Assembly: GCA_036376135.1 (NCBI GenBank)
Contig: DASVAW010000165.1
Location: forward strand, 1 to 42,900
Direction: 5' to 3'
DNA length: 42,900 nt
DNA from: Candidatus Polarisedimenticolaceae bacterium
Lineage (GTDB): Bacteria; Acidobacteriota; Polarisedimenticolia; Polarisedimenticolales; DASRJG01
Below the pieces are notes generated by a model. It was not told the origin of the DNA. It searched no databases and saw nothing but the letters and a program-made list of their open reading frames with translations. A program made the position numbers and the translations under genes. Shown in pieces: positions 8,152-42,844 of the stretch; position 1 is the first letter of the stretch, and the number at the start of each line of letters is the position of its first letter.

Positions 8152-10752
8152 TTATCGCCGAGGTTCCCGCGACGCGTGCTCCCCCTTCTCGCGAGGAGGC
8201 TTCGCGAGCAGGGGAACCACGCGTCGACCCACGACGACGACGAGGCCGGCCGCTACGATACCGACGACGAGCCCGCCCGGGTGGACCGCGCGAAGCGGCG
8301 CGATCCGCGACCAAACGGTGCCGCTTCCCCCCGGTGCGACGACCACGGCCCCGTCCCCGTACAGCTCGAAGCCCGCCCAGGCGACGTCCGCGACGCCGGC
8401 CTCGATCCGGTCGCGCCGGACGCGGGCGAAGCCGTCGGACAGCCGCCGTCCGCGGGCCAGCTCCGCGGCCAGATCGCTCACGAAGGCCGCCGCGTCGTCG
8501 TCGCGAACCGGCCACAACGAGGCCACCACGGCTCGCGCACCGGCCCGGAAGAAGGCGCGGGTCAACCCGAACACGCCCTCTCCGGACAGGAGCTCCCCCC
8601 CGGCGCTCGAGCACGCGGACAGGACGACCACCCGGCCCCTGAGGTCGAGCGCCGCGATCTCGGCGGCGGTCAGCAGTCCGTCCTCGGAAGGATCCCCGCG
8701 GGCCAGGACGATCGCCGCGCGATCCGGACGGGCGTCGTCCACGACCGCATGCGCGGCGAAGTGCACGACCCCGTAAGGGGCGAGATCGGTCGTCTTGATG
8801 AACCGTTCGGAGGCCGCCTCCGCGGTGACGACGCGGCTCTCGCCGCCGAGCAGTCGCACGAGCCACGTCGCCTCGTCCACCGCCCGGGGGATCCTCCCGT
8901 AGGCGGAACGGAAGACCGCGACCTGCGCCGAGTCCTTCGTCTCCGGGTCGGCGACGGCGAGCGCCGACGGCGGAACCGATGCTCCGCCGCGCGCGGCGAG
9001 CCACGCGGACGCTGAAGGGGCGATCGAGATCTCGTAGCGTGAGGCCAGGCGGGCGTCGCCTTCGCCGGTCGGCAGCGCGGCCACGGGGAGGCGGTGCATC
9101 CCCCGATCGGGGACGACGACGAGGCGCCGCACCGTCGGAGCGACCGTGCGCAGCGGCGCTTCGAAGAGCTCGGCGTGCAGTCGCCGCCCCGCGCGCGACG
9201 CGCCGGGATCGCTCGCGTCGACCAGGCCCAGGTAAAGCTCGATCCTCGGCTCGAGCTCCACCGACTCGCCGACCGGCACGACGCGGACGCGCTCCCGCTC
9301 GATGACGAACACCCACGACCCCCCGCGGTCGTCGAAGAGGTGGATCTCGGGATGTTCGAGCCGCGTGGAGAGCTGGAAGACGAGCATGGCCTCGTCGTCG
9401 GCGAGCGTGCGGCGGAGCGACGCGAGCGTCGCGGAGCCTCGCCGCCCCCGTTCGGCCATCTCGAAGGCGACCGCCAGATCCTCGTCGGAAGGTTCGCCGT
9501 CACCCAGGGTCCTGCCCGCGCAGGTCGCGTACCAGCTCCCCCACTCCGCCGCGACCCGGGCGGCGATCAGCGTGTCGGACTGCCCCGCGTGCAGCGCATC
9601 GACCGCATCGAAGGCCGCCTCGCAGGCCGCGATCGCCTCGGCGCGTCGCGCGAACCTCCACTGCACGTGACTCCGGGCGAAGAGGCTTCGCACGACTTCG
9701 TCGGGGCTCCCGCGCGTTTTCGCCGCGTCGATCGCCTCGTCGACGAGGGCCAGGGCCTCGTCGGGTTGCCGGCTGCGCACCGCGAGGGCGCGCAGCGCCT
9801 GTACCTCGAGGCGCGCGTTCCCCAGGTTCCGCCCGACGTCCAGGGCCCGACGGGCGAGCTCCCCCTGTCGCTCGTCGGGGACGGACCGCAGCCGCGCGAG
9901 CAGCAGGCAGGCCGCGGCCTCGGCGGCGGGGTTACCTGCGGCGACGGCGCTGTCGACCGCCGCCTGCACGAGACCCGTGACTTCCTCGACGGAGATCTCC
10001 CCTCGCTCGAGCAGGCGTCCGGCGAGGACCGCGGCGTTCGAGCGCTGCGTCGACTCCTCGAACCGGTCGCCGCGGATGCGACAGCGCTCGGCGTCGGCGA
10101 GGTAGGCCTCCAGCCCCTCGCGGTAACGGCCCGTCGCCCAGGCGACGGCCCCGAGACCCCCCGCGACCGCGGAGGCGAGGTCGTCGGGACCCTCTCGGAA
10201 AGCGACCGTCCCGGCGCGCTCGAACGCGGCGCGCGCCGCCGCATAGTCGGCGAGGCGGATCGCCTGCCATCCGCGCTGGGCCTCCACGCGCGCGCCGACG
10301 ACCGCGTCCTCCGATCGCGCCGCGGCCGACGAAGCCGCCCCGAGCTGTTCCTCCGCCTCCGCGTTCCGGCCGCCGTACCCCAGGTACATCGCGTACCAGA
10401 CGCGCGCGCGGGCCTCGGCGTAGGCGTCGCCTCCCGCGACGAACCCGTCGATGGCCCGGCGGTACGACGCGTCGGCCCCGGGATCACGCAGGTCCGCCAG
10501 GACCCCCGCCAGAACGATGCGGGCGGCGTCGTTCGCCGGATCGACCGCCACCGCCGCCTCGAGCCGCCGCCTGACCTCGGGCCAGGCCTTCTGCTCGCGC
10601 GCGGCCATGAAGAAACAGGCCCAGCGATCGACGGCGTGTCCGGTTCCCCGCAGCCCCGCCTCGCACGACTCGATCGTCACGGCGCGCACCGGCGCCGGAG
10701 CCGCCGCCAGGATCGCGACGCCCAGCAGCGTGCGCCGGGCGAGCCGTTTCAC
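8152..10752 (-). CDS. Signal-peptide-bearing TPR-CHAT (caspase-like) protein
   Basis: 866 residues. A signal peptide is likely (VKRLARRTLLGVAILAAAP to about residue 24). Residues about 50-430 are helical TPR-like repeats. The C-terminal CHAT domain (about 540-800) carries the His-Cys dyad H668 in HFAAHAVVDD and C714 in LSACSSAGG, 46 residues apart. This is the arrangement of CHAT/separase/caspase-clan peptidases. A C-terminal hydrophobic helix (about 826-842) with a basic tail suggests membrane anchoring with the peptidase outside the cytoplasm. Its GTG start overlaps the anti-sigma stop (GTGA), so translation is coupled and it is the third gene of a sigma/anti-sigma operon. It may degrade a partner when the sigma pathway is triggered; the substrate is unknown. 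The main uncertainty is topology. Confidence 0.88.
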   Translation of the reverse strand: MKRLARRTLLGVAILAAAPAPVRAVTIESCEAGLRGTGHAVDRWACFFMAAREQKAWPEVRRRLEAAVAVDPANDAARIVLAGVLADLRDPGADASYRRAIDGFVAGGDAYAEARARVWYAMYLGYGGRNAEAEEQLGAASSAAARSEDAVVGARVEAQRGWQAIRLADYAAARAAFERAGTVAFREGPDDLASAVAGGLGAVAWATGRYREGLEAYLADAERCRIRGDRFEESTQRSNAAVLAGRLLERGEISVEEVTGLVQAAVDSAVAAGNPAAEAAACLLLARLRSVPDERQGELARRALDVGRNLGNARLEVQALRALAVRSRQPDEALALVDEAIDAAKTRGSPDEVVRSLFARSHVQWRFARRAEAIAACEAAFDAVDALHAGQSDTLIAARVAAEWGSWYATCAGRTLGDGEPSDEDLAVAFEMAERGRRGSATLASLRRTLADDEAMLVFQLSTRLEHPEIHLFDDRGGSWVFVIERERVRVVPVGESVELEPRIELYLGLVDASDPGASRAGRRLHAELFEAPLRTVAPTVRRLVVVPDRGMHRLPVAALPTGEGDARLASRYEISIAPSASAWLAARGGASVPPSALAVADPETKDSAQVAVFRSAYGRIPRAVDEATWLVRLLGGESRVVTAEAASERFIKTTDLAPYGVVHFAAHAVVDDARPDRAAIVLARGDPSEDGLLTAAEIAALDLRGRVVVLSACSSAGGELLSGEGVFGLTRAFFRAGARAVVASLWPVRDDDAAAFVSDLAAELARGRRLSDGFARVRRDRIEAGVADVAWAGFELYGDGAVVVAPGGSGTVWSRIAPLRAVHPGGLVVGIVAAGLVVVVGRRVVPLLAKPPREKGEHASREPRR

Positions 10753-11363
10753 TCGACGCTCGCGCTGAAGCTCGGCGAGGAGACGCGCCGGCCGTCGGTG
10801 AGCACGGCGTCGACCTGCCAGACGATGGTGGCGCCGCGCGGCAGGGAGCCGAGGGCCTCGGCGGGGACGAGGTACTCGGTCCCCGCGAGGTTCGGTACCG
10901 TCGCGAGCACATCGAGGTCCGCGGTCGCGACCCGGAGCCGGTAGATCGCGCCGGGCTCGACGGGCGACCACCGGAGCCGGAAGTGGTGTCGCGCAAGCGC
11001 GGCCCCTTGGGGCACGAGGGACGCGATCTCGCGGCGCGTCCCCTGCCGGTATTCCGGCTCGGGCCCTCGAGGGATCGCGATCCAGAGCGAGGCCGCCGCG
11101 ATCAACACGGCGGCCGCGGCGAGCCAGTAGGGACCCGATCGGCGGGGCGCGGCGACCTGGACCGGCGCCGCTCCTGCGGCGACCGCCAGGCGCCAAGCCT
11201 CCGAGCAGGCGCCGCAGACGGCGAGGTGGTCCACGACGCGGCGCCGCGTTTCCGGAGTCGACGCACCGCAGACCGCGTCCCAGATCGCCTCCGCCTCGGG
11301 GCAAGGCGCCGTCGATCCGGAGGGGTCGGCCGTCGACGCGAACGCCGACTCGAGGTCCTTCAC
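10749..11363 (-). CDS. Transmembrane zinc-finger anti-sigma factor
   Basis: 204 residues. The N-terminal cytoplasmic part has H46-x3-C50-x2-C53 (HLAVCGAC) plus upstream Cys21 and Cys32, the ZAS-type anti-sigma signature. A single TM helix lies at about 77-97 (PYWLAAAAVLIAAASLWIAI). The C-terminal region is an FN3-like periplasmic domain (RLRWSPVEPGAIYRLRV, then TIVWQVDAVL). Its ATG overlaps the sigma stop in ATGA and its stop overlaps the CHAT start in GTGA. It should hold the partner sigma factor at the membrane until a signal releases it. Confidence 0.85.
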   Translation of the reverse strand: MKDLESAFASTADPSGSTAPCPEAEAIWDAVCGASTPETRRRVVDHLAVCGACSEAWRLAVAAGAAPVQVAAPRRSGPYWLAAAAVLIAAASLWIAIPRGPEPEYRQGTRREIASLVPQGAALARHHFRLRWSPVEPGAIYRLRVATADLDVLATVPNLAGTEYLVPAEALGSLPRGATIVWQVDAVLTDGRRVSSPSFSASVE

Positions 11364-11917
11364 GGCTTGAGCCCTTTCGCCTCGAGGCAGCGGCGGAGAT
11401 CCGCCATGCCCCGGTAGACCAGATTCTCGGTCCGCTTCTCGGACCAGCCGAGAATGCGCGCTCCCTCGGGAACGGAATGTCCCTGCAAGCGAACGACGCA
11501 GGCGAGCCGACGGTCGGCCGCGAGCGTCGCGAGACAGGCGCGAAGTCCGCGGGCGATCTCGCGCGAGGCGGCGGCGCGCTCCGGATCGCCCCGTTCGTCG
11601 ACGATCATGCCCTCCTCGAGGCCCTCCGGGGCCTGAACCTCCCGGCTGCGCCGTCGCCGACGGATCTCGTCGACCAGGGCGCTGAACGCCGCTCGCTGGA
11701 CATAGAACGGCGTCGCCCTCCAGTTCCCCTCACGCGACTCCTGCGCCGCCACGATGCGCGTGATCGCGACCCCGACGAGATCGTCGGCTTGCGAGCGTAG
11801 CCACCAGGGGCAGATGCGTCGCACCGCCTCGGCGAGCCTGGCCCGCAGCTGGTCGTGCCCGATCTCCGGTTCGCTCGAGTGCTCGATCGCGCCGTCGGGC
11901 TCGCGCGGAACGCTCAT
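11360..11917 (-). CDS. ECF-type RNA polymerase sigma factor
   Basis: 185 residues. The N-terminal half has a region-2-like helical segment (DDLVGVAITRIVAAQ and FYVQRAAFSALVDEIRRRRR). The C-terminal half has a region-4 helix-turn-helix (HSVPEGARILGWSEKRTENLVYR) for -35 recognition. It is the first gene of the sigma/anti-sigma/CHAT operon. The region-2 sequence is divergent, so the subfamily is uncertain. It is divergent, with a gap of only 90 bases, from the giant FG-GAP gene, which makes that gene a candidate target alongside autoregulation. Confidence 0.85.
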   Translation of the reverse strand: MSVPREPDGAIEHSSEPEIGHDQLRARLAEAVRRICPWWLRSQADDLVGVAITRIVAAQESREGNWRATPFYVQRAAFSALVDEIRRRRRSREVQAPEGLEEGMIVDERGDPERAAASREIARGLRACLATLAADRRLACVVRLQGHSVPEGARILGWSEKRTENLVYRGMADLRRCLEAKGLKP

Positions 11918-12007: not shown

Positions 12008-15000
12008 ATGCTAATCGAGAACCCGGGTCGACGTGCCCCGTACGCCGCGGCTTTCGCGTTGTCCCTGACGCTCACGGGGCCCGCTTGGGCTCAGGCGCCC
12101 GACCCCGGCTGGCTGGCGAAGGCCTCCGCGGAGGTCGCCGCCGCCGAGTACCGCTTCGCGGCGGACGAAGCGGGGGCGGCGTGCGCGCCGAACCGGGCCC
12201 ACGACCTCCGGGCGCGCGTCGCCGGCGACGGGATCTCGATCGAGTCCCGGACCCGCGGAGCCGATCCCCGCGAGGGCGGCTGGCGACTGACCCTCGGCGG
12301 CCTGGCGTGGGGGCGGGGCGAGCACTTCGGGCCGGCCGAGCGGGGCGCCGTGACCTCCGAAGGGAATCGCGCGGCGATCGTCCGCATGGGGATCGTCGAG
12401 ACCTGGATCAACGACACGCGCGGGCTCGAGCAAACGTTCGACGTCCACGCCCCTCCGCCGGGGTCGCGCGCGGGTGGGCTCCTCCGGATCGCCGTCGAAC
12501 TCGGCGGCGACCTCCTCCCGTTCCTCGCGGAGGACCGCGCGTCGATCGAGTTTCGGTCCCCCGGCGGCGAGCCCGTCGCACGCCTCGGGCACCTTCTCAC
12601 CACCGACGCGCTGGGGCGCGTCGTCCCGTCGAGCTTCGAGCTCGCCGAGGGGCGCCTGGAGATTCACGTCGACGACGCCGACGCCGTTTATCCCCTCCAC
12701 GTCGATCCGCTGCTGACGAGCCCGTCGTGGGTCGTCGAGTCGAACCAGGCCGGCAGTTCGCTCGGAATTTCGGTCGCGACCGCGGGGGACGTCAACAACG
12801 ACGGCTTCTCCGACGTCGTCGTCGGCGCGTGGGGGTACGACGCCGGGCAGACCGACGAAGGGGCGGCCTTCCTCTACCTCGGGTCCGCCTCCGGTCCGTC
12901 GACCACGGCGAGCGTGACGTTCCAGGCCGATCAGGCCTCGGCGCAGTTCGGCGCCGCCGTCTCGACCGCGGGCGACCTCAACGGCGACGGCTTCGACGAC
13001 GTGATCGTCGGGGCCCCGGCGTACGACCCCGGCGTCGCGGACGTCGGGCAGGTCTTCGTCTACCTCGGAGGCAATCCGATGAATGCCGTCGTCGACAAGA
13101 CGGACAGTCGCGGGAGCTCCGGTTCGAACTACGGCGGCTACGTCGCGCCGGCGGGGGACGTCGACCGCGACGGCTATTCGGACGTCGCCGTCGGCGCGGC
13201 GTACCTCGACGACGGGCAGGTCGACGAGGGGGCCGTGTTCGTTCGGTACGGGCACCCCACTTCCGTGTTCGACGCCTCGCAGGAGTGGGCCATCCAGTCG
13301 AATCAGGCGAACGCCAGGCTCGGCGCGGTCGGGACCGCAGGCGACGTCAACGGCGACGGGTACGACGATCTCATCGTGGGCGCCTATCTCTACAACAGCG
13401 GAGAGAGCGGCGAGGGGAAGGCGTGGGTGTTCCACGGCGGACCCGGCGGTCTCGCGGCGGGCCACAGCTGGTCCGCGGAGCCGAACCAGCTCGAGGCCCA
13501 GTTCGGCGTGTCGGTCGCCACCGCAGGGGACGTCGACGGCGACGGGTACGCCGACGTGGTGGTGGGTGCCAACGCCTTCGACAACGGACAGACCAACGAG
13601 GGCGCGGTCTACCTCTACCGCGGGTCCGCGTCGGGACTGTCCGCGTCGTACACCCATCGCATCGAGTCGGACGGGCCCGGCGCGCTGCTGGGGACGTCGG
13701 TCGCCACCGCCGGGGACGTCAACGGCGACGGTTTCGCGGACGTCATCGCGGGGGCGCTCAACTTCGACGGGGCGGGAACCGATCGCGGACGGATCTACGT
13801 GTGGCCGGGAAGCGCCCAAGGATTGCGTACGTCCTCGCCGTGGACCTTCGACGGCGACCAGGACTCGGGGAAGATCGGGAGATCCGTCGCGACGGCGGGG
13901 GACGTCAACGGCGACGGGTACTCCGACGTGATCGCCGGGGCCTCCGACTACGACGCGGGCCAGACCAACGAGGGGCGCGCCTATCTCTTCCTCGGATCGG
14001 GAGACGGGCTGACGACGGCCTCCCTCGACGACATCGTCCTCTCGGGAGCGACGGTGGACACCGACTTCGGATGGTCCGTCGCCTCCGCCGGCGACGTCAA
14101 CGGCGACGGCTTCTCCGACGTGATCGTGGGCGCCGAGGGATACGACAACGGGCAGACGGACGAGGGCGGCGCGTTCGTCTACCTCGGGTCGGGAGGCGGA
14201 TTGCCGACCTCCCCGAACGCCACGCTCCAGTCGAACCAGGCCGGCGCGCTGTTCGGGTGGGCGGTCGCGGGCGCGGGGGACGTCAACGGCGACGGTTACG
14301 ACGACGTGGTGGTCGGCGCCCCCGAGTTCAACATCAACACCGGGCAACCGGTACGCACCGGGAGGGTCTTCGTGTTCCATGGCGGCCCCTCGGGCGTCGA
14401 CCCCACCGCGGACTTCCAGGACTCGCACTACGGCACGTCGGGCCCACCGGACGCCAACTTCGGCGAGAGCGTCTCCGGCGCGGGTGACGTCAATGGGGAC
14501 GGCTTCGCGGACGTCGTGGTCGGTGCCCGGAGCGCCGGCGAGGCGTTCGTGTACCACGGCTCGGGAACGGGCTTGCGCAACGACAACGAGACCGCGCTCG
14601 CCGAAGGGAACGAGTTCGGTCGCAGCGTCTCCGGCGGCGGCGACGTCAATCGCGACGGCTTCTCGGACGTGATCGTCGGGCGCCCGGACACTTTCGGCTC
14701 CGACTTCGCCTACGTGTACTGCGGCTCGGCGGCCGGGGTCTCGGCGAGTCCCTGCTGGACGAAGGCCGGGACGTTCAGCGGCATGGGCCACGGCGTCGGC
14801 GGAGCCGGCGACGTCAACGGCGACGGTTTTTCCGACGTGGTGGTGATCGATCGCGCCTCGGGGGCGAGCAGCGGCCAATGGCAGGTGTTCCACGGGAGCG
14901 CGTCGGGGCTCTCCACGACGGCCGCTCGCACGGTCTCCTTCTCCTACCTCGATCGCGTCGGCTCCGCGGGAGACGTCAACGGCGACGGCTTCTCCGACGT

Positions 15001-16168
15001 CGTGATCGGCGCGGGATCCGGGAACTCGGCCGCGGTCTACCTCGGCTCGTCGACCGGCATCGGCTCGACCGCGGGTTGGTCGGTGACGGGCGCGAACGCC
15101 GGCGACCAGTTCGGGCACGCAGCCGCGGGAGCCGGGGACGTCAACGGCGACGGCTTCTCCGACGTGATCGTCGGCGCGTACGGCGAAGGATCGGGTGCCG
15201 TCCACGTCTATTACGGCGGCGGTGGGGACGGCCTCGATCGCCGTCCGCGGCAGATCCGGTCCTCCACCACCGCGCCGATCGCGCACGTCGGCAACGCCGA
15301 CTCGTCCGATCGTTTCAGGATCCGACTCTTCCGGCGGACCCCCGCCGGCCGCGACTCCGTCGGGTACCAGTTCCAGGTCGCCTCTCCCGGGCAGGCTTTC
15401 GGTTCCGGCGTCAGCGGAACCGCCGGCCCCGCGGACTCCGGGGTTCCCGGCGCGAACGGAAGCGCCACGGACACGGAGAGGCTGGTCACCGGCCTCCTCC
15501 CGCAGACGGTGTACCGGTGGCGCGCGCGCTATTTCTCGCACAACCCTTACTTCCCGGCGTCGCGCTGGTTCGCCGTGCAGGGGAACAACGTCACCGAAGC
15601 GGACTTCAGGACCCCGTGCGCCACCCTCTGGTACCGCGACGCGGACGGCGATACGTACGGCACGTCGTCGCTGTCGCAGAACGCCTGCGCCCAACCCACC
15701 GGCTACGTCGCGACGGCGGGAGACTGCAACGACGCCGACGACTCGATGTTCCCCGGGAATCCGGAGGTTTGCGACGGGAAGGACAACGACTGCAACGGGA
15801 CGGCGGACGCCCTCCCCGCGCCGACCGGGACGCCCTCGATCGCCACGATCACGCGAAGCGGCATCTCGGTCACCTTCAGCTGGGCTGCGGTAGCCGGGGC
15901 CGACCGCTACGACACGGTGCGCGGGCGGCTTCTCCTCCTGAAGTCGTCGGGAGGCGATTTCACCTCGACGGTGGACAACTGCTCAGCCAACGACGCGACA
16001 TCGACGTCCGTGACCGACCCCTACCCGACGCCGGTCAACGATCATTTCTACTTCCTGGTTCGCGCCGTGAACTGCGCCACGAACGGCACCTACGACGAGC
16101 CGGCGGGGACGCAGGTGGGGCTCCGCGACGCGGAGGTGCAGGGGGCGGCGGGAGGAACGTGCCCGTGA
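12008..16168 (+). CDS. Giant secreted FG-GAP repeat protein with MopE-type metal-binding motif
   Basis: 1386 residues. The signal peptide ends at about residue 28 (LTGPAWA-QAP). Residues 30-245 are a beta-rich N-terminal domain. Fourteen FG-GAP/VCBS repeats follow (about 246-1065), each with a core such as FGxSVATAGDVNGDGFSDVIVGA; the DxNxDG loops are calcium-binding in integrin alpha propellers. After a beta linker comes a Cys-rich putative metal-binding segment (DGDTYG, GDCNDADDSMFPG and CDGKDNDCNG near residue 1253), as in MopE-like proteins. An FN3-like C-terminal domain ends in Cys-Pro. The ATG at 12008 is 7 bases after GAGGAG. It is probably exported to the surface or medium as a Ca-dependent adhesion or scaffold protein. 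The export route is not visible. Confidence 0.9.
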   Translation: MLIENPGRRAPYAAAFALSLTLTGPAWAQAPDPGWLAKASAEVAAAEYRFAADEAGAACAPNRAHDLRARVAGDGISIESRTRGADPREGGWRLTLGGLAWGRGEHFGPAERGAVTSEGNRAAIVRMGIVETWINDTRGLEQTFDVHAPPPGSRAGGLLRIAVELGGDLLPFLAEDRASIEFRSPGGEPVARLGHLLTTDALGRVVPSSFELAEGRLEIHVDDADAVYPLHVDPLLTSPSWVVESNQAGSSLGISVATAGDVNNDGFSDVVVGAWGYDAGQTDEGAAFLYLGSASGPSTTASVTFQADQASAQFGAAVSTAGDLNGDGFDDVIVGAPAYDPGVADVGQVFVYLGGNPMNAVVDKTDSRGSSGSNYGGYVAPAGDVDRDGYSDVAVGAAYLDDGQVDEGAVFVRYGHPTSVFDASQEWAIQSNQANARLGAVGTAGDVNGDGYDDLIVGAYLYNSGESGEGKAWVFHGGPGGLAAGHSWSAEPNQLEAQFGVSVATAGDVDGDGYADVVVGANAFDNGQTNEGAVYLYRGSASGLSASYTHRIESDGPGALLGTSVATAGDVNGDGFADVIAGALNFDGAGTDRGRIYVWPGSAQGLRTSSPWTFDGDQDSGKIGRSVATAGDVNGDGYSDVIAGASDYDAGQTNEGRAYLFLGSGDGLTTASLDDIVLSGATVDTDFGWSVASAGDVNGDGFSDVIVGAEGYDNGQTDEGGAFVYLGSGGGLPTSPNATLQSNQAGALFGWAVAGAGDVNGDGYDDVVVGAPEFNINTGQPVRTGRVFVFHGGPSGVDPTADFQDSHYGTSGPPDANFGESVSGAGDVNGDGFADVVVGARSAGEAFVYHGSGTGLRNDNETALAEGNEFGRSVSGGGDVNRDGFSDVIVGRPDTFGSDFAYVYCGSAAGVSASPCWTKAGTFSGMGHGVGGAGDVNGDGFSDVVVIDRASGASSGQWQVFHGSASGLSTTAARTVSFSYLDRVGSAGDVNGDGFSDVVIGAGSGNSAAVYLGSSTGIGSTAGWSVTGANAGDQFGHAAAGAGDVNGDGFSDVIVGAYGEGSGAVHVYYGGGGDGLDRRPRQIRSSTTAPIAHVGNADSSDRFRIRLFRRTPAGRDSVGYQFQVASPGQAFGSGVSGTAGPADSGVPGANGSATDTERLVTGLLPQTVYRWRARYFSHNPYFPASRWFAVQGNNVTEADFRTPCATLWYRDADGDTYGTSSLSQNACAQPTGYVATAGDCNDADDSMFPGNPEVCDGKDNDCNGTADALPAPTGTPSIATITRSGISVTFSWAAVAGADRYDTVRGRLLLLKSSGGDFTSTVDNCSANDATSTSVTDPYPTPVNDHFYFLVRAVNCATNGTYDEPAGTQVGLRDAEVQGAAGGTCP
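12745..15200 (+). repeat. Fourteen degenerate ~170-bp FG-GAP coding repeats
   Basis: The GGGGACGTCAACGGCGACGG-type core recurs 14 times with individual variation (DVNNDG, DLNGDG, DVDRDG, DVNRDG). Spacing is roughly 130-220 bp. Fourteen equals two seven-bladed propellers. The high nucleotide similarity among repeats is a likely substrate for recombination. Confidence 0.85.
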
Positions 16169-25379: not shown

Positions 25380-28082
<2,703 letters not shown>

Positions 28083-29279: not shown

Positions 29280-32200
29280 CTACCAGGTCCCGATGAGATT
29301 GACGAACGCGCCCTGGTGGTCGTAGCTCAGATCGGTCAGGTCGTCGGAGAAGTCCGTGAAGTTGTAACCGACGCCGGCCTTCAGGTGCTCGCCGAAGTAA
29401 CGGTAGACCGCGACCAGCGCGCCGCTGCGGCGTTGACGGACATCCGGCAGGTCGAGCATGCGCACTTCGGCCAGGCTCTCCCAGCCCTTGCGGAAGCGCC
29501 AGTCCGCGCGCAGCACCGCGAGCTGCGCGGCATTGTCGAAGAACCGCCGATCCTCGCGATCGAGGCTCACCTGTCCCAGGCGGTAGGCGACCTTGCCGCC
29601 GATCGACCAATCGGCGGTGACGTCGTAGGTGAGATCGAGCGCCGCGACGTGGCTTTTCTGAATGAACCCGACGGCCGTGTTCTGCACGCCCACCTGGTCG
29701 GTGGTCGGGACGTTGTAGAAGTACGTGTACTTGGCCAGCGCGTTCAGCCGGTCGTTGCGCACGGGGCGGTAGGCGTAGCCGACCACGAACTCGGTGTAGC
29801 CGCCGTCATGGAACTCGCCGAGCGAGCTGTCGCTGACCGAGTGGTTCAGCTTGCCGACGACGCGCCAGTCCGGCGTCAGCTGGATCTTGACGTTGTTGCG
29901 GAACAACCACGCGGTCCTCTCGGTGCGCGTCGTGTCGAGCTGCTCCGCGTCGTCGCGGCGGTACTCGATCGCGGTCGAGAACTGGATCGACTCCGCGCCG
30001 TAGCCCAGACGGACTCCGATCGCCTTGCGATCGGTCTCGGCGCCGGTCTGCGAATCGCTCAGCGTGCCGAACTCCGCGCTGCCTCCGACGTTCCAGCGTT
30101 CCCTGGCCACGAGCCGGATTCCGGTGGCGTGCGTGAGGCCGCTCACCGACCCGCCGTTCTGGTACCGCTCCTCCAGGTAGACGCTGGAGCTGTCGGAAAG
30201 CCTCCGCTTCACGCCGGAGACCAGGTTGCCCCTTCGGACGTTCAGGCCGTTGTCCGTCCGCTCGTTCTCCAGCGAATAGTTGAGGTAGAGGCTCGTCCGC
30301 TCCGATTGGAGAAAACTGGTTCCGATCCGGCCGCCGGCTCCGAGGTCCCCGTCGGATGCCTCCGCATCGATCCGGAAGCGATGCGTCAGGCGATACGAGC
30401 CGCCCACGCCGATGCGGCCGTTGTCCGGACGGCCCTCGTCCGACGCGACCGTCTCCTGCACGAAACCGTAGGCGCGCCACTTGGCGCCGGGGTCGAACAG
30501 GACCTGCGCGACCGCGTCCGTGCGCTCACCCTGCTCCTGAGTCGCGGGAACGACCGGCGAACGGTCCTCGCGCAGGTCGTTCCTCACCCCGGCGCTGACG
30601 CTCCACGTTTCGGTCACCTTGAATCGGGCATCCACTTCGATCGCCCGGGTCTCGAGCCCCTGATCTTCGGTCTTCTGATCGCCCTTGGCCGCCACGCTCA
30701 GGCGCTTGGTCACGGGCATCCGGAACGTGCCGCCGTATTGCTCGGTGTCCTTGATCGTCGCCTGCCCCGGCGCCGAGTAGCCGGCGTCCCGGTTCTGCAC
30801 GTACAGGGTGACGCGGCCGTCGCGGCCCTCGAAGACGTCGCCGAGTCCGACGCTCAGGTCGGCGCGATAGGCCGCGGCTTCCGCGTCGGTGAACGAAAGG
30901 TCGTCGGGACCCTGGAACCCGAACCCGCCGTCGTCCGAACGCAGCGCGCTGGAGACGAGACCTTCGCTCCGGCCCGCCTGCACCTTGAACCAGGAGTCGG
31001 CGCTCATGCGCAGCGTCAGGTCCGCGGCGGCGAGGTTGCTGTCGGCGTCCCCTTCGTCGTTGGAGTTGGCGGTCACGCCGACCCGCACGTGGTCGTTGAA
31101 CCAGTAATGGCCCTGGCCGCCGACGGCGACCGCATCGAGCTCGTCGAAGCCCGGCGTGTACTCGTAACGCGCCACGAGGTACGCCTCGTCGCCGCTCAGG
31201 CCGCTGCTGCGCACGAGCAGGTTGTCGTCGGCGGTCGACGAGAGCGGTTCGGTGAGGAGCAGCCGGCCCTGCAGGTAGTCGATGTCGTAGTCCATGCCCG
31301 GCCGCAGGTTGACCACCCCGGTGACGATGCGCGAGTCCTTGTCGCGGATCTCGATGCGCACGCGCTCGGAGCCCGTCAGGACGTCCTGGTGGCGCAGGAA
31401 GTAGAGCGATCCTCCCGTTCCCCGGAACTCCTCGTAGCTGGGCATCGTTCCGGGGTCGGCGGCGAACCCGTCCACGGCGGCGCGCGGCGCGCCGAAGCCG
31501 GTGGTGGCCTCGGACCCGTAGTGCGCGTTGGCTCCGTACAGGCCGCGATCGACCTGGGCGAGCTCGTTGCCCGTGAAGTCGATCTTGAAATTGCCCCACA
31601 TCGCGTAGTTCGCGCCGCGGCTGGCCTTGACGTAGAACTTGCCCTGGGTCGGCGCCATCTCCTCCACGACGCCGTCGTCGCCGAACGTCGGGTAATAGGT
31701 GTCCGGATCGATGCGCCGGAACAGCGAGTCGGGAGACTTGTCCAGGAAGTTGCTGAACAGGTCCTCGATCGGGCCTTCGCGGGTATCCGCGCTCGCCGTC
31801 AAACGCCAGTGCTCGCTGATCTTGCCGTTCAGGTAGAACGCCAGCCGGCCGTCGAGCGTGGAATCGTACGGCTGCGGCGCATCCTCGCCCTGCAGCAGCT
31901 CCACCGGCCCGTTCGCGCGGTTCTCGGAGAGCGTGACGTCGGCGAGGCCGACGTAGAACAGGTCCCTGCGCTTGAACTCCAGGTCGCGCAGGTACAGCGA
32001 CCCGTTGCCCGCCTCGTCGAGCACGGCGACTTCGACCGTGTGCGCGCCGGCGGGGAGGATCTCCTCCGCGGCGAAGTTGCCCTGCGGATCGACCGGCACC
32101 GGCCGGCCCGCCACCCAGACCGTGTGGCCCGCGGGGATGCCGCTGCCCCGGACCTTCACCGTGCCACCGTCGAGGGGGATCTGACGGCGCGCCAGCGCGC

Positions 32201-34349
32201 TTTCGCCGTAAACGGCGAGCAGGTCGTGCGGCGGCTCGGTCGCGGAGGCGCCGGACGTCGCGACCTCGGGGGACGGCTCGGGGTACAGCCACAGCGGCCG
32301 CGCCTCCGTCTCGTCGAAATGGTCCTTCGCGTCGTAGGCGCGCAACACGTACTTGAGCTCGCGCGCCGGGTCCGCGAGCAACTCCGCGGCCGGTTGCCAC
32401 TCCGCCCGGCCGGCGGCGTCGACCGCGACGATCGCGAGCGGCGCGTCCTGCAGCGACTGCTCCTGCTCGAAGATCCGGATCTCGGCCCGCTCGATGAAGC
32501 TCGCGTAGTTGTCGTACGTCCGGAAACGCACGACCGGGGCGACGGGACCGTGCTCCGTGCGGCTCACCGCCACGGCGGCCGGATGCGCCGCGACGCCGAG
32601 CCGCGGCCGGGATTCGAGATTGTCGAAGCGGAACTGGATCCTGGCGTCGTCGAGCGCGACGTCGGTGCAGCGCTGGACGTCGGAGGAGGTGCGGCCCGGA
32701 TCGTCGATCGGTTTGCCGTCCACGGTGATGCGCATCACGTTGAGCTCGTAGGCGCTTTTCGGACGCAGCTCCCGGGTGATGGGCGTGATGTCCACGCCCT
32801 CGTAATCGTCGAGCGGCATCGGTTCGTCGTACACGGCCTGCACGCGCACGAACGACCTCTCGCCCTGGGTGAAGCCGACGTTCACGACGTCGTCGGACTG
32901 CACGTAGCCGCGCCCCTCGTGCTCCGCCCGGGCGTTCGACAACGCGGGATCCTGCTTGAGGGCGTCCATGGTGCGGCGCGCCCGCGCGGCGGACAGTCCG
33001 ATGTCGTCGCCGTACACGGACGCGGTGCGGCGGTCGAGGCGCTCGTTCTTCGTGTAGCCGATGAACCGCAGCCGCGCATTGGTCCGACCGGAGATGTCGG
33101 TCAGCGCGCGATTCAGGACCGCGGCGTAACCGGGAGGAAGGACCGGCCGGCCGTCGGCGAGCTCGAGCGTGGGGATGGTGCCCCAGGGGGGGTCGTAGAC
33201 CTTCGTCACCATCTCGTCGCCGGCGTCGCCGGGACAAAGCTGCGGCTCTTCCGGGAGCTCCTGGAGCGCGTCGTCGTGCCAGAACTCCACCTCGACCCGG
33301 CGATTCAGCGTCCGTCCCTGCGCGGTGTCGTTGGAGGCGAGCGGCTGCGAGGCGCCGCGCCCGTCGCTTTCGATCGCCGCGCTCGGAAGTCCCAGGGTCT
33401 CCTGCATCGCCAGGGCGACGCGGAGCGCCCTCGCCTTCGACAAGGCCAGGTGGTCGCCGTAGATGCGCTCGTCGCGGTCGGTCAGCGGCGCGTCGTCGGT
33501 GTGGCCGATGAACCGGACCGTCACCCGCTGCTTGTCCCCCAGGTTGTGGAGCGCCTGCCGGACCTGTCGGGCGAAGTCCTCGGAGACGGGGGTGGTCTCG
33601 TCCTCGTAATGCAGCGGTACGACGAGGTTCTTGACGCGCGAACGCCGCGCATGACCTTCCCTGTACTTCAGCTTGCAGACGGTCTCCATCCGGCAGACCT
33701 TGATGCGCTTGATGTCTTCGGCGACGACGACCTCCTCGTCCCGGAGGTCCTTCCGCGGCTCGTCGTACCAGACCTCCACCTCGACGCGTCGGTTCTGGGC
33801 GCGGCCCTCCTCGGTCAGGTTCGAGGCCACGGGCTGCGTGTCGCCGGCCCACTCGTAGGTGATGGCCTCGGGGGGCAGACCGAGCGCCGTCTTGAAGTAC
33901 TCGGCCACCTCGCCGGCACGTTCCCGGGAGAGGCCCGCGTTGTCCCCGAAGACGCGCACCAGCCCCTCGGAAAGGCGTTGGGAGTCCGCGTGGCCGACGA
34001 AGTGGACGCGGACGTTCCTGCGCTGCCGCATGCCCTCGAGGAGCTTGGCGAGCTTTTCGACGTGGCCGGGCGGAATCTCCGCCACACCCGATTCGAAACG
34101 GATGGGCGGAACGACGTTCTTCAGCTTGACGGTCTCGAGCTTCTGGCCCTCGACCTGCCGGACCTCCAGCCGATCGCCCCGCTCGAGATCGAGCAGATCG
34201 GGGTCCTGCGACCATCGCCGGAACGTCTGGTCGCCGGACAGGTGCCGCTCGACCGGCTCGCCCGGCGCGGCCTCGTCGACCGGCTCGGCGCTCGCCGCGG
34301 CGGTCGTCAGGAGTCCGAGGATCAGCAGCAGATGGCGGTGCTTGCTCAT
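29280..34349 (-). CDS. Three OmpA-like domains plus outer-membrane beta-barrel protein
   Basis: 1689 residues with a signal peptide (HLLLILGLLTTAAASA). Three OmpA-like peptidoglycan-binding domains are visible: centres FVGHADS (H120), FIGHTDD (H283) and FIGYTKN (Y432). The first two are followed by QNRRVEVEVWYDEP / LNRRVEVEFWHDD. A central region (about 560-790) is Ig-like. From about 800 the sequence is amphipathic beta strands with a conserved section (RIDPDTYYPTFGDD, QGKFYVKASRGANYAMWGNF, YDIDYLQGRLLLTEPL) and ends in Trp (VNLIGTW), like an outer-membrane barrel. It follows the DUF11 gene by 5 bases, so it is a coupled pair. Its likely job is to anchor or display the partner across peptidoglycan and outer membrane. 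The pair type is seen in other bacteria but is uncharacterised as far as I know. Confidence 0.9.
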   Translation of the reverse strand: MSKHRHLLLILGLLTTAAASAEPVDEAAPGEPVERHLSGDQTFRRWSQDPDLLDLERGDRLEVRQVEGQKLETVKLKNVVPPIRFESGVAEIPPGHVEKLAKLLEGMRQRRNVRVHFVGHADSQRLSEGLVRVFGDNAGLSRERAGEVAEYFKTALGLPPEAITYEWAGDTQPVASNLTEEGRAQNRRVEVEVWYDEPRKDLRDEEVVVAEDIKRIKVCRMETVCKLKYREGHARRSRVKNLVVPLHYEDETTPVSEDFARQVRQALHNLGDKQRVTVRFIGHTDDAPLTDRDERIYGDHLALSKARALRVALAMQETLGLPSAAIESDGRGASQPLASNDTAQGRTLNRRVEVEFWHDDALQELPEEPQLCPGDAGDEMVTKVYDPPWGTIPTLELADGRPVLPPGYAAVLNRALTDISGRTNARLRFIGYTKNERLDRRTASVYGDDIGLSAARARRTMDALKQDPALSNARAEHEGRGYVQSDDVVNVGFTQGERSFVRVQAVYDEPMPLDDYEGVDITPITRELRPKSAYELNVMRITVDGKPIDDPGRTSSDVQRCTDVALDDARIQFRFDNLESRPRLGVAAHPAAVAVSRTEHGPVAPVVRFRTYDNYASFIERAEIRIFEQEQSLQDAPLAIVAVDAAGRAEWQPAAELLADPARELKYVLRAYDAKDHFDETEARPLWLYPEPSPEVATSGASATEPPHDLLAVYGESALARRQIPLDGGTVKVRGSGIPAGHTVWVAGRPVPVDPQGNFAAEEILPAGAHTVEVAVLDEAGNGSLYLRDLEFKRRDLFYVGLADVTLSENRANGPVELLQGEDAPQPYDSTLDGRLAFYLNGKISEHWRLTASADTREGPIEDLFSNFLDKSPDSLFRRIDPDTYYPTFGDDGVVEEMAPTQGKFYVKASRGANYAMWGNFKIDFTGNELAQVDRGLYGANAHYGSEATTGFGAPRAAVDGFAADPGTMPSYEEFRGTGGSLYFLRHQDVLTGSERVRIEIRDKDSRIVTGVVNLRPGMDYDIDYLQGRLLLTEPLSSTADDNLLVRSSGLSGDEAYLVARYEYTPGFDELDAVAVGGQGHYWFNDHVRVGVTANSNDEGDADSNLAAADLTLRMSADSWFKVQAGRSEGLVSSALRSDDGGFGFQGPDDLSFTDAEAAAYRADLSVGLGDVFEGRDGRVTLYVQNRDAGYSAPGQATIKDTEQYGGTFRMPVTKRLSVAAKGDQKTEDQGLETRAIEVDARFKVTETWSVSAGVRNDLREDRSPVVPATQEQGERTDAVAQVLFDPGAKWRAYGFVQETVASDEGRPDNGRIGVGGSYRLTHRFRIDAEASDGDLGAGGRIGTSFLQSERTSLYLNYSLENERTDNGLNVRRGNLVSGVKRRLSDSSSVYLEERYQNGGSVSGLTHATGIRLVARERWNVGGSAEFGTLSDSQTGAETDRKAIGVRLGYGAESIQFSTAIEYRRDDAEQLDTTRTERTAWLFRNNVKIQLTPDWRVVGKLNHSVSDSSLGEFHDGGYTEFVVGYAYRPVRNDRLNALAKYTYFYNVPTTDQVGVQNTAVGFIQKSHVAALDLTYDVTADWSIGGKVAYRLGQVSLDREDRRFFDNAAQLAVLRADWRFRKGWESLAEVRMLDLPDVRQRRSGALVAVYRYFGEHLKAGVGYNFTDFSDDLTDLSYDHQGAFVNLIGTW

Positions 34350-34354
34350 GCCGC

Positions 34355-37300
34355 TCACCTGCCTTCCTGCACGGGCACGTCGGGTTTCCCGGGCGGGGCG
34401 CCGCGGCGCCAGAAGACCTCGGCCTCGATCGTGAGGCGGTAGCCGCCGGCCTCGGCCCAGGCTTCGGTCAGCTGCTGCCGAACCGCCGCCACGCGCGCGT
34501 CGACCAGCGCCGACTCCTCCGTGTCGGCGACGTAGGAGAGGCGCAGGACCGCCGGCGCCTTGCGAAGCTCCCCGAGAAGGAGATCGAGACGCGGCCGCCA
34601 CTGGACGCGGATCTCGGTCGTGTCCGGCTCGAAGACCGCATCGGAGAGGTCGATGGCGACCACGCGGTGGATCGACGCGCCGAAGTTGATCTTCAGGGCC
34701 TTGCCGCGCGTGGCGCGCCGGACCTGCACCTGGTCGGTCGACATCCGGAAGCCGCTCGGCAGGGTCCGGTCGTCGAGCTTCAGCACGAAGTTGCTGCCGC
34801 GGCTCTCGTGCGGCGTGATCGCGCAGGTGATGTGGTACCGGCCGTACGGATCCGTCGTCGCCTGCAGACCGCGAGCGGTCACCACGCGCACGCCGGGCAG
34901 GCCGTCCTCGCCGTCGTCCTGCAGCCCGTCGCGATCGACGTCGTTGAAGACCTTCCCGGTCACGTCGGTGCAGTCGAACGTGGGATCGGGCACCACGCGC
35001 ACGGCGGCGGTCGCTTCGCCGGACATCGCATTGCCGGTCGCGCCCTGCACCACCTGCGCGCGGTTCACGAACTCGCCCTCGCCCACGCCCGCGCCCACGG
35101 CGAGCAGCAGCTTCACCGTGCGCACCTCGGTACCCGCGAGGACGAGGCCGTCCCAGCGCAGCTCGCGTCCCGCGACCGACGGCTCGGTCGGCACCCCGTC
35201 GAGGACGGCGGAGCCCTCGACGTAGGTGAATCCAGCCGGGAAGCGATCCAAAAGGCTCACGTCGGTGAGCAGCAGCCCGGCGGCGTTGTTGACGGTGATC
35301 ACGTACGGGACCTGCTGCCCGCGGGTCACGTTCCGCAGCGGCGTCGTCTTGGAGATCCCGACCGAGCCGTTCAGTTGCGGATCGAGCGGGATGTGGTTGT
35401 TGAAGATCTGGCTCGTGCCGGGGGCCTGGCTGCCGTCCAGCATCAGGTGGACGCGGTAGACCGTGCCCGCGCTGCGTGCCGGAACCGAGGCCGCCGGCGC
35501 GAACTCCGTGGGCTGCACCTCGCAGAACAGGGCGGTGCCCGGCAGGGCGTCGTCGACGGTTCCCGGGCAGGCCGGCACCGAGAACGCCGCGGTCGTCGCG
35601 TCGGAGGTCGGCGGGATGATCTGGGAATAACCCGCGAGGTAGGTCGTCCCCGGGGGCGCCGTCACGCCGATGACGTAGTCCCCGCCGCTCGGGCAGGCCG
35701 GGTCGCCGAAGTTGAGGTCGAACTTGTAGTAACCGTCCGCGAGCGTGACCTGCCCCTGCTGGGCCGCGTCGTCGAAGCAGTTCTCCGGGAGGGGCGAGGC
35801 GCCGGCGGCGTTCAGCAGGGTGAGGGTCGCTCCGGCGATCGGGACGCGCGCGACCGAGTTGTAGACGACGCCGTTCGGATCGATCGGCAGGTCGAGTCCC
35901 TGGAGGTTGGCCCCGGACGCCACGACGACGCCGTCGATCCGCTGCGGCAAGTTCGTGAACGGCGACGCGGCGCGCCCCAGCATCGCGGTGTTCGGCCCCG
36001 CGCCGGGGGCCCGGAACCGCAGCACGTAGGGGGTGGCCGCGTCGTTCGGCTCGACGTTGATGATCCGGTAGGCGCCGCCGGCATCGGTCAGCGACGTATG
36101 GAGCAGCTGACCGCCGCGATAGAGGTCCACCGACCAGCCCGCCAACGCCCGCTCGCCGGTGTCCTGGGCGTCGTCGAAGTCCGCGTCGTGCCAGACCGAC
36201 CCGTTGAGGATGGCGACGCCGGGGATTCCGCCGACGGTGATCGAGACGCTGGCGCTCGCCGTGAGCGTCGGGGTGTTCCACGCGACGACGCCGGTGTTCG
36301 TGACCACCGTGCCGTTCGCGAGGCCGGCGTCGAGCACGGCCCGGAACCGCAGCGTCACGGTCGCGCCGGGATCGAGCGGGCCGTAGACCGCGCCGTAGTC
36401 GGCGGTGATCGACGCTCCGGCGACGCCGACGCCCGACGCCGAGCCGTTCATCGTGGCCGATCCGGGCACGTAGGCGAGCTGGCCGGCGGGCAGATCGTCG
36501 GTGAGGACGACGTTCTGGGCCGGGACGGCGGCGATGTTCGTGACCGTCACCAGGTATTCGAGCGTCGCGCCGGGGACGGCCGGGCCGCCGCCGACCACGA
36601 CGACTTGCTTGGTGATCGTCAGCTGCTGGGCCGCGCCGACGACGACGACCGTCGGCTGGGCGCCGTTCGCGGGGTTGCCGTCGCTGTCGGTGAGCAGATC
36701 CGGAAGCTCGACGGTGTCCACCACCGCCTGGTTGACGATCAGGGTCCCGTCGGGGGTGCCGAGGTCCACGCGCAGGTCGAACGCGACGACGGCCGTCGCC
36801 CCGGGCGCGATCGTGCCGAGGTCGATCCCCGAGGCGAGCGGGGCGACGCCCCCGTCCGGCCGGCCGAACGGCTGCGCGTTCCGCGTGGTCGAATCGGCGA
36901 CGTAGGTCGTGTTCGCCGGAACCGCGTCGGTCAGGACGACGCCGGTCGCGGGGATCGTTCCCGAGTTCTGGACGGTGATCGTGTAGTGCAGGACGTCGCC
37001 CGGATCGACGACCCCCGGCGAGCCCAGGTCCACCGCCAGGGCGACCACCTTCGCGGCGTAGAGCAACGGGTAGTTGCCCACGACGTCGCGCGTCGGGTCG
37101 TTGGGCAGCGGCGTGTCCGGATCGTCGGACGGCTGATCGATGACGCCGCCGGCGGCGGCCGTGACGAAGCCCTGGTTCGAGATCACGGTCCCGTCGAGGA
37201 CGTTCGGATCCACGACGACGTCGAACGTGACGGTCGCGACGTTGGCCGTTCCGGCCGACGCGTCGGCCGGCATCGAACCCGGCGTCGGATCGGCCGGCGA

Positions 37301-41211: not shown

Positions 41212-41709
41212 TTAGGTGGTTTGCGCGGGCTTCTCGACCACGGCCAGCGACACTCGCGTGTAGCCCTGCGCCGTACACGTGGCCAAGACCTTCTTCAGGA
41301 CGCTGAAGGGAACCGACTTGTCCGCGAGAACCGTGACCTCCTGGCTCGCGGCGACGGCCTGCGTGCTCAAGCCGATGACGCTTGCGCTCAGCTCGGCGAG
41401 CCGCGCACCGATCGGCTCGATCTCCGCGTTCCCGGAGGCCTGGATGTCCGCAACGCGCGCGACCGGCACGCCCTGCACGAGGACCTCGTCCCTGCTGACG
41501 AAGATGACGACCGTCTCGCGGGGCTTCGCCTCGACCTCGGACTCCGGCAGGGTGATCTGCTTGGGTTGCTGCAGCACTTCGCTCGTGGCCGAGTTGACGA
41601 TGAGGAAGAACACCAGCGTGACGAAGACGTCCATCAGGGACGTCAGGCTCAGCTGCGGGACGCCACCCCGGTTGCGCGTCATGCGCGCGATGCGGCGCGA
41701 GGTCTTCAT
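41212..41709 (-). CDS. ExbD/TolR-family motor protein with canonical Asp
   Basis: 165 residues with one TM helix near 20-43 containing LTSLMDVFVTLVFFLIV. D27 is the proton-carrying Asp equivalent to ExbD D25. A periplasmic domain follows with LADKSVPFSVLKKVLATC, the usual ExbD/TolR C-terminal motif. Its ATG overlaps the previous gene's stop (ATGA) and GGAG lies 7-10 bases upstream. It forms the proton path with ExbB. It precedes the AgmX-like gene by 24 bases. Confidence 0.92.
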   Translation of the reverse strand: MKTSRRIARMTRNRGGVPQLSLTSLMDVFVTLVFFLIVNSATSEVLQQPKQITLPESEVEAKPRETVVIFVSRDEVLVQGVPVARVADIQASGNAEIEPIGARLAELSASVIGLSTQAVAASQEVTVLADKSVPFSVLKKVLATCTAQGYTRVSLAVVEKPAQTT

Positions 41710-42188
41710 GGCGCATCTCCTATGGAAATCGCCGTGAACAGGTCGGCCCGGCCGGCCCGGCCGCCGTCGCGCGTCCGGACGCTTCGCACGGTGTCCATGA
41801 CCTGGACGAGATGGTCGTATTCGATGTCGGGCTCGAGAAGCACCGAGGCGTCGTCCTTCTGCGGGTACTCGCCCTTGATCGCCACGAGGTACTCCGAGAG
41901 TTTCGGCAGGTCGTACGAGCCGCCCACCTTCGGAATCGCGGCGATCACCTGCGAGCCGTCCATGATCTCGAGCCCGGCCTCGCGGACGACGACCTCGACC
42001 CGGAAGGTCGGGCTCGTCGGCGCCTCGCCCTTCGCGCTCGGCAGATCGAGCTCGGCGATCGTGATCCGCGAGAAGACCGCCGTGCTGAGCAGGAACGGCA
42101 CGAGGCACATCATCAGATTCATGAAGGTCGTCATGTCGAGGTCTGCCGCCGCCTTCTGGCGCAGGCGGTAATGATGTGCTCTCGCCAT
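41706..42188 (-). CDS. ExbD/TolR-family protein with Asn in place of the membrane Asp
   Basis: 160 residues. The N-terminal segment RLRQKAAADLDMTTFMNLMMCLVPFLL carries Asn24 where ExbD/TolR/MotB proteins have the essential Asp. The TM helix spans about 20-42. The periplasmic part is ExbD-like (VVVREAGLEIMDG; DASVLLEPDIEYDHLVQVMDTVR). It sits between exbB (stop 42194, 5 bases upstream) and the canonical exbD, overlapping the latter's start. A heteromeric stator with one Asp-bearing and one Asp-less subunit is a reasonable inference. Confidence 0.88.
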   Translation of the reverse strand: MARAHHYRLRQKAAADLDMTTFMNLMMCLVPFLLSTAVFSRITIAELDLPSAKGEAPTSPTFRVEVVVREAGLEIMDGSQVIAAIPKVGGSYDLPKLSEYLVAIKGEYPQKDDASVLLEPDIEYDHLVQVMDTVRSVRTRDGGRAGRADLFTAISIGDAP

Positions 42189-42193
42189 ACCCG

Positions 42194-42844
42194 TTACGCC
42201 GTGACCTGGCGCTTCGCCAGCGAGGTGATCACGTTGAGGGCCTTCACGGAGGCCATCTCGAGGCTGTTCACGATCTGGCCCGTCTTGGCCGTGAGCACCG
42301 AGTGCGTCACGAGCAGCGGGATCGCGACGATCAGCCCGAACGCCGTCGTGTTCATCGCGACCGAGATGCTGGCCGACAGCAGGTCGGCCTTCTCCGCGGG
42401 ATTGGCGTTGCCCACCGCGGTGAAGCCCTGGATGAGGCCGATGATGGTACCCAGCAGGCCGAGGAGCGTGGCGATGTTCGCGCCGACCGCGACGTAGGCC
42501 GTGCGCTTCTCGAGCTGCGGGATGATCTCCATCATCCCTTCTTCCATCGCGATCTCGATGTCCTCGCGCCGCCGCACCGCGCCCTGGCGCGCGAGCCCCA
42601 GGCCCAGCAGCCGCGACACGGTGGAGTCGTCCTTGCTGGTCAGCTCGCGCGCCTTGTCGAAGTCTCCGCTCGCGAGCGCGGGCTGGAGCTTGCTCCACAT
42701 GCCCTCGTTCTTGCGGATGATGCGCGTGAGCGTGACGTAACGCTCGATCGCGATCGCGGCGCCGACCGCGGCGACGACCAGGATCGGATACATGAAGGCG
42801 CCGCCCGCCTCGAAGAATCTCACCACCACGTGCACGAGCTCCAT
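42194..42844 (-). CDS. exbB: MotA/TolQ/ExbB-family proton channel protein
   Basis: 216 residues with three TM segments: about 16-34 (AFMYPILVVAAVGAAIAIERY), 115-140 (GANIATLLGLLGTIIGLIQGF) and 155-182 (SVAMNTTAFGLIVAIPLLVTHSVL). The cytoplasmic loop after TM1 is as usual in the family. With the ExbD proteins it builds the inner-membrane channel that uses proton flow to drive the TonB-like subunit. AGGAGG at about 42853-42858 precedes the ATG by 8 bases. It is the first gene of the operon unless upstream genes outside the window belong to it. Confidence 0.92.
   Translation of the reverse strand: MELVHVVVRFFEAGGAFMYPILVVAAVGAAIAIERYVTLTRIIRKNEGMWSKLQPALASGDFDKARELTSKDDSTVSRLLGLGLARQGAVRRREDIEIAMEEGMMEIIPQLEKRTAYVAVGANIATLLGLLGTIIGLIQGFTAVGNANPAEKADLLSASISVAMNTTAFGLIVAIPLLVTHSVLTAKTGQIVNSLEMASVKALNVITSLAKRQVTA

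Follow-up and report, generated by a model that had tools for sequence, protein, structure and literature searches.

In Myxococcus xanthus, the transmembrane anti-sigma factor DdvA (PDB 8rot, 8rw5) unites an anti-sigma part and a tetratricopeptide repeat (TPR)-CHAT part in one chain of 991 residues. Its partner, the extracytoplasmic function (ECF) sigma factor DdvS, governs an antiphage island that comprises a CRISPR-Cas system and two cyclic-oligonucleotide (CBASS) systems (PMC12288465). As of 2015 it was not known which signal inactivates DdvA (PMC4374960). In Craspase, the TPR-CHAT protease Csx29 cleaves Csx30, which in turn inhibits an ECF-like sigma factor (PMC10028731). CHAT-domain proteins have also been reported in the genetic context of ECF54 sigma factors, a group characterised by a CHAT/subtilase context and by acting without an anti-sigma factor (PMC8999054). 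Here we analyzed a stretch of 42,900 nucleotides from Candidatus Polarisedimenticolaceae bacterium, a member of the Acidobacteriota (assembly GCA_036376135.1, contig DASVAW010000165.1, positions 1 to 42,900), which we call the window. At positions 8152-11917 its minus strand carries three genes, which encode in turn an ECF sigma factor, an anti-sigma factor with one membrane pass, and an exported TPR-CHAT protein. Sequence profiles and structural models indicate that this operon is a split DdvA-like module, in which the CHAT protein is most likely a signal-responsive site-1 protease or co-receptor acting upstream of the anti-sigma factor. In the literature searched, which did not include the main ECF classification and the closest DdvA papers, we came across no account of a sigma/anti-sigma pair encoded together with a CHAT protein that is separate and exported.

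The three proteins of the operon

A first-pass annotation of the window had described the region as an operon for an ECF sigma factor, an anti-sigma factor, and an exported CHAT protein, and the gene calls, the family models, and the recurrence of the three genes as a unit all agree with it. The sigma factor gene (11360-11917; 185 amino acids, ATG start), the anti-sigma gene (10749-11363; 204 amino acids, GTG start), and the CHAT gene (8152-10752; 866 amino acids, GTG start) follow one another on the minus strand, on which all operon features given below also lie. Both junctions are overlaps of four bases, as the annotation had proposed, but its reading of one of them as ATGA was wrong: the sigma/anti-sigma junction CCGTGAAGG and the anti-sigma/CHAT junction GAGTGAAAC both read GTGA.

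The CHAT domain of the third protein is unambiguous by family model (PF12770, residues 520-800, positions 8353-9195; E=1.9e-58, 198.6 bits against a cut-off of 24) and has a separase/Csx29 fold in the structural model (Z 25-30). The AlphaFold2 (AF2) model was built from 35 sequences and had a mean predicted local distance difference test score (pLDDT) of 86.7. The dyad His668-Cys714 was numbered correctly in the first-pass annotation (codons 8749-8751 and 8611-8613) and is kept in relatives. Cys714 is invariant in two partly overlapping sets of CHAT relatives with 23 and 35 members, and His668 is kept in 23/23 and 34/35 of them. The sole exception has Glu instead of His (L178), and its gene lies outside any sigma/anti-sigma operon. 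Because the His/Cys dyad is intact in every operon copy examined, catalysis by the CHAT peptidase appears to be under selection.

Several features suggest that the CHAT domain lies outside the cytoplasm. The protein begins with a signal peptide (about residues 1-24, 10681-10752) with a basic n-region, a hydrophobic core, and the putative cleavage site PVRA|V, and ends with a transmembrane helix (residues 825-845, 8218-8280) that is followed by a basic tail. Both had been noted before and both are common among relatives: by hydropathy, the operon CHAT proteins have a signal-peptide-like start, and nearly all of them end in a transmembrane helix with a basic tail. No NCBIfam model for a C-terminal secretion sorting signal matched the CHAT protein, and we therefore assume a plain C-terminal membrane anchor. 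The region between signal peptide and CHAT domain forms a TPR-like helical repeat array (residues 27-434, 9451-10674). The TPRs reported by the annotation are weak by Pfam (E=0.17), and the array in the model matches TPR proteins (LGN, Rap, and the helical repeats of Csx29). Directly after the signal peptide the array contains a pair of cysteines, Cys30 and Cys46, that is near-invariant among CHAT relatives. In the model the two residues are on neighbouring helices of one hairpin (27-34, 41-54), a placement that would fit a disulfide, judging from the helix boundaries. Given the signal peptide, the C-terminal helix with its basic tail, and the near-invariant cysteine pair, the CHAT domain is predicted to be extracytoplasmic in operon after operon, as the annotation had suggested for this one.

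The anti-sigma factor is less well captured by family models. Its match to zf-HC2 (18.4 bits, E=0.0024) is below the curated cut-off of 22.2, and the best zf-HC2 match among 26 relatives has an E-value of 3.9e-6. The protein contains the motif H46-x3-C50-x2-C53 (11205-11228) in a ZAS-like domain, followed by a transmembrane helix (residues 80-96, 11076-11126; model helix and hydropathy). The HxxxCxxC ligands are retained in 22-23 of 36 family members and about a third are without them, hence zinc is not universal in this anti-sigma family. The AF2 model (pLDDT 87.2) shows a helical ZAS-like N-terminal part, the transmembrane helix, and a beta-sandwich ectodomain. This predicted extracytoplasmic domain (residues 109-204, 10752-11039) is modelled with a pLDDT of 96-98 from residue 111 and resembles FN3/Ig-like structures with Z about 9 (best 9.5). 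The juxtamembrane linker contains Arg106 (11046-11048), which is kept in 35 of 36 dereplicated members while the flanking linker columns are highly variable, making it a candidate cleavage or docking site.

The sigma factor scores 46.1 bits with TIGR02937 (cut-off 42.9), passes the ECF model, and is 32-49% identical to the sigma factors of other such operons. We looked for a shared promoter motif in 39 upstream regions, using bipartite k-mers and GAAC-type -35 elements, and found nothing clearly above shuffled sequences. The operon is flanked downstream, on the same strand, by a gene for a Na+/H+ antiporter-TrkA protein. On the other side, 90 bases from the sigma gene and divergent from it, a gene at 12008-16168 (plus strand) encodes a large FG-GAP repeat protein that is secreted and has a metal-binding motif of the MopE type; it is possibly a target of the sigma factor.

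Comparison with DdvA and other pathways

The closest described relative of the operon is DdvA. The CHAT model matched DdvA with a Foldseek E-value of 5.8e-13 and with Z 21.6-21.9 (for Z 21.9, 551 aligned residues and a root-mean-square deviation [rmsd] of 4.6), and a sequence profile of the CHAT domain also finds DdvA (E=7.5e-12). The LATHG and AACEG motifs of DdvA align with the His and Cys motifs of the window protein, and the equivalents of both residues are kept. The fusion of both parts in DdvA assigns TPR-CHAT to the anti-sigma side in pathways of this kind. The two systems differ in layout: the parts joined in DdvA are encoded here by two genes, the anti-sigma factor has an FN3-like ectodomain, and the CHAT protein has its own signal peptide and C-terminal anchor. 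In some lineages the split operon has a secreted fourth gene, which is also unlike DdvA. Both layouts are present in M. xanthus AM003: besides the split operon (AM003-type locus L166, 6050-10790), it has three TPR-CHAT proteins that resemble DdvA and are encoded near sigma genes (L232, L233, L234). Two of these three have an evident N-terminal HxxxCxxC motif and a transmembrane helix, and the three are possibly an expanded family beyond DdvA. A search of solved structures with the sigma profile did not list DdvS (E<=0.001).

The fused form bears on how the CHAT protein may act. It could be a co-receptor that cuts nothing in this pathway but binds the FN3 domain of the anti-sigma factor and signals by a change in conformation or by dimerisation, with its peptidase aimed elsewhere or at itself. 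TPR-CHAT forms the ectodomain of the anti-sigma factor itself in DdvA, a dimeric DdvA structure has been deposited (8rw5, according to its title), and direct ligand sensing is common among anti-sigma factors. If the protein were a pure receptor, however, some operons should have lost the dyad, whereas all operon copies keep His668 and Cys714 and the one loss of His is in an orphan gene. We regard a non-cutting role as somewhat unlikely. The first-pass annotation's reading of the CHAT protein as the protease that leads to release of the sigma factor gains weight from the homologous TPR-CHAT in DdvA, from the invariant dyad, and from the precedent of Craspase.

Craspase/CASP, a type III-E CRISPR system, shares the TPR-CHAT peptidase fold with the window protein, and the substrate of its protease is a sigma inhibitor (PMC10028731). 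The CHAT model matched Csx29 (7y9x_B) with Z 30.3 over 395 aligned residues (rmsd 3.6). Csx29 differs in being part of an intracellular, RNA-guided Cas7-11 complex and in lacking an export signal, while the window protein has a signal peptide and a transmembrane anchor and the window anti-sigma factor is a membrane protein. A homology between the anti-sigma factor and Csx30 was considered and rejected, since a profile search of PDB sequences did not match Csx30. No cas genes were recognised among the window genes tested, the rest of the genome being outside that search. Separase likewise combines helical repeats with a clan CD peptidase fold of the CHAT type (Z about 25), but is eukaryotic and intracellular, cuts cohesin, and involves no sigma factor. 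Unlike ECF54 systems, the window operon has an anti-sigma gene between the sigma and CHAT genes.

In its overall arrangement the operon resembles the RseA/DegS/RseP envelope-stress pathway. Both have a membrane-bound anti-sigma factor and a dedicated protease on the outer side, proposed here to act at site 1, and the genome encodes an RseP-type site-2 protease (TIGR00054, 269.2 bits; contig C92). DegS is a PDZ serine protease, whereas the candidate in the window contains TPRs and is a cysteine peptidase of the caspase-like kind.

Conservation and variants of the operon

The first-pass annotation had left open whether the triplet was confined to its genome, and a survey found it conserved well beyond. 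A second full sigma/anti-sigma/CHAT triplet is present in the same genome (contig C8; L005, 1422-4625), with proteins 36-42% identical to those of the window. Within the same order (10 genomes) the triplet occurs in four further genomes, with five copies in one complete genome, and it recurs many times in the class and phylum, across orders and classes of Acidobacteriota. Carriers include Acidobacteria bacterium Mor1, Candidatus Polarisedimenticola svalbardensis, other Acidobacteriota, and a metagenome-assembled genome of Proteobacteria, as well as the Myxococcota Myxococcus, Pyxidicoccus, and Corallococcus, whose operons have an extra gene. Many of the carriers are bacteria of soils and sediments. 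In the wide contig scan a single CHAT protein as query gave no relatives, and an alignment as query found them.

The linkage is also visible from the anti-sigma side. A search of the class (41 genomes) identified 23 full-length members of the anti-sigma family, of which 22 are each followed immediately by a TPR-CHAT gene, the remaining one being at a contig end. Sigma and anti-sigma genes lie upstream of 26 of 50 genes for CHAT proteins with a C-terminal transmembrane helix and of 5 of 33 without one (Fisher p=0.001), in loci that were picked by CHAT similarity and are not a random sample. Across 35 operons, the pairwise distances of the three proteins co-vary, with a Mantel r of 0.80 for the CHAT/sigma comparison, 0.74 for CHAT/anti-sigma, and 0.67 for anti-sigma/sigma. 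As values of this size can arise from common descent by itself, the correlations point to co-inheritance and not to contact.

As the trio recurs as a unit, its arrangement is more than chance. The source genome is rich in genes of both kinds, with 4 CHAT proteins and 51 ECF-model matches, and an ordinary cytoplasmic CHAT protein could in principle come to lie beside an unrelated sigma/anti-sigma pair or have its topology misread. Against this, the gene order is kept across phyla, the anti-sigma family is linked almost exclusively to CHAT, and the signal peptide and C-terminal transmembrane helix recur. The survey thus largely refutes chance neighbourhood or a misread topology, which we consider highly improbable.

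Some operons contain an additional gene. In Myxococcus-type loci and several Acidobacteriota, a small secreted protein of about 155-195 amino acids is encoded between the anti-sigma factor and the CHAT protein, giving a four-gene form (L166 7334-7873, L172 7271-7822, L109 3964-4437, L177 5867-6352, L170 7358-7942, and others). These inserts are one family over Myxococcota and Acidobacteriota (profile E-values down to 1e-10 across phyla). Searched against the called genes, their profiles hit no other proteins, and five tested inserts had no Pfam family above cut-off. By eye, two operons have a clostripain-like (C11) peptidase gene as the insert instead (L130 5701-7986, L137 2931-5075), and thus contain two clan CD peptidases within one sigma operon. 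In the source genome, a CHAT protein gene adjoining one for a clostripain-like peptidase was also seen apart from sigma operons (L004, contig C112). CHAT proteins without a C-terminal transmembrane helix are also encoded close to ECF sigma genes, in different arrangements (L062, L065, L069, L076, L077), and several of these start with a possible lipobox.

The inserted peptidases are among the observations that would suit a CHAT protein acting as an effector, the alternative named in the first-pass annotation. Here the sigma factor would induce the operon that encodes it, and the peptidase, once exported, would cut other envelope or extracellular proteins. CHAT comes last in an operon that is probably autoregulated, effector roles are frequent among clan CD peptidases, and the window protein weakly matches the PADLOC defence model BovA (E=4.5e-10). 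The DdvA fusion, which places a homologous TPR-CHAT inside an anti-sigma factor, makes such a role less likely, and the anti-sigma family is found almost only adjoining CHAT; overall we judge it quite unlikely. We also rejected an identity of the locus as a defence system, the BovA match covering only the CHAT domain and the neighbours scanned containing no defence genes.

Elsewhere in the window, a KatG-like heme peroxidase gene (25380-28081, minus strand) with an upstream gene for a FUR-family regulator is an ordinary oxidative-stress pair. Two adjoining, overlapping genes at 29280-39451 (minus strand) encode very large secreted proteins of 1692 and 1698 amino acids with OmpA and DUF11/SdrD_B domains, near probable ExbB/ExbD-like genes (41212-42844).

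A proposed route of sigma factor release

We propose that the ECF sigma factor is kept inactive by the single-pass anti-sigma factor, whose FN3-like part would be on the outer side of the membrane. The TPR-CHAT cysteine peptidase would be exported and anchored in that membrane, facing the side on which this domain lies, where its TPR array, and in the four-gene form also the small secreted partner, may read an envelope or external signal. The signal would switch on the CHAT peptidase, which would then cut the anti-sigma factor close to the membrane, with Arg106 as the candidate site. RseP-type proteases accept a short stub, and a cut near Arg106 would leave one. An RseP-type intramembrane protease and cytosolic proteases would finish the anti-sigma factor and free the sigma factor. 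We infer the position of CHAT upstream of the anti-sigma factor, the cutting, its site, and the order of the steps, and consider this route marginally probable.

Several points weigh against it. Cleavage of the anti-sigma factor is a prediction, and Arg106 is a candidate not proven to be CHAT-specific: Arg-Gly is found at the same place in distant relatives too, and the residue might be structural. The topology is predicted from hydropathy and the model. The presence of CHAT in cis in DdvA would, by analogy, also fit a purely sensory role, and co-inheritance in an operon is no proof that CHAT acts on the anti-sigma factor. There are also CHAT proteins of this build that are encoded on their own (L050, L158, L165), and the CHAT protein of the second triplet in the genome (L005) is without the N-terminal repeats and the Cys30/Cys46 pair.

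Beyond this operon, an exported and membrane-tethered separase/caspase-like TPR-CHAT peptidase may make the first cut in dedicated membrane anti-sigma factors in a widespread class of bacterial signalling systems, in place of DegS, PrsW, or signal peptidase, with the split form of three or four genes and the fused DdvA form being two layouts of one machine. We put this forward tentatively, as slightly short of an even chance. Bacterial caspase-like CHAT peptidases are so far known mostly from intracellular defence and CRISPR. The split operon is present in M. xanthus, an organism with routine genetics, and the idea is directly testable there. If true, it would define a new class of site-1 protease for regulated intramembrane proteolysis, and would suggest a possible route of activation for DdvA, for which the inducing signal was reported as unknown (PMC4374960).

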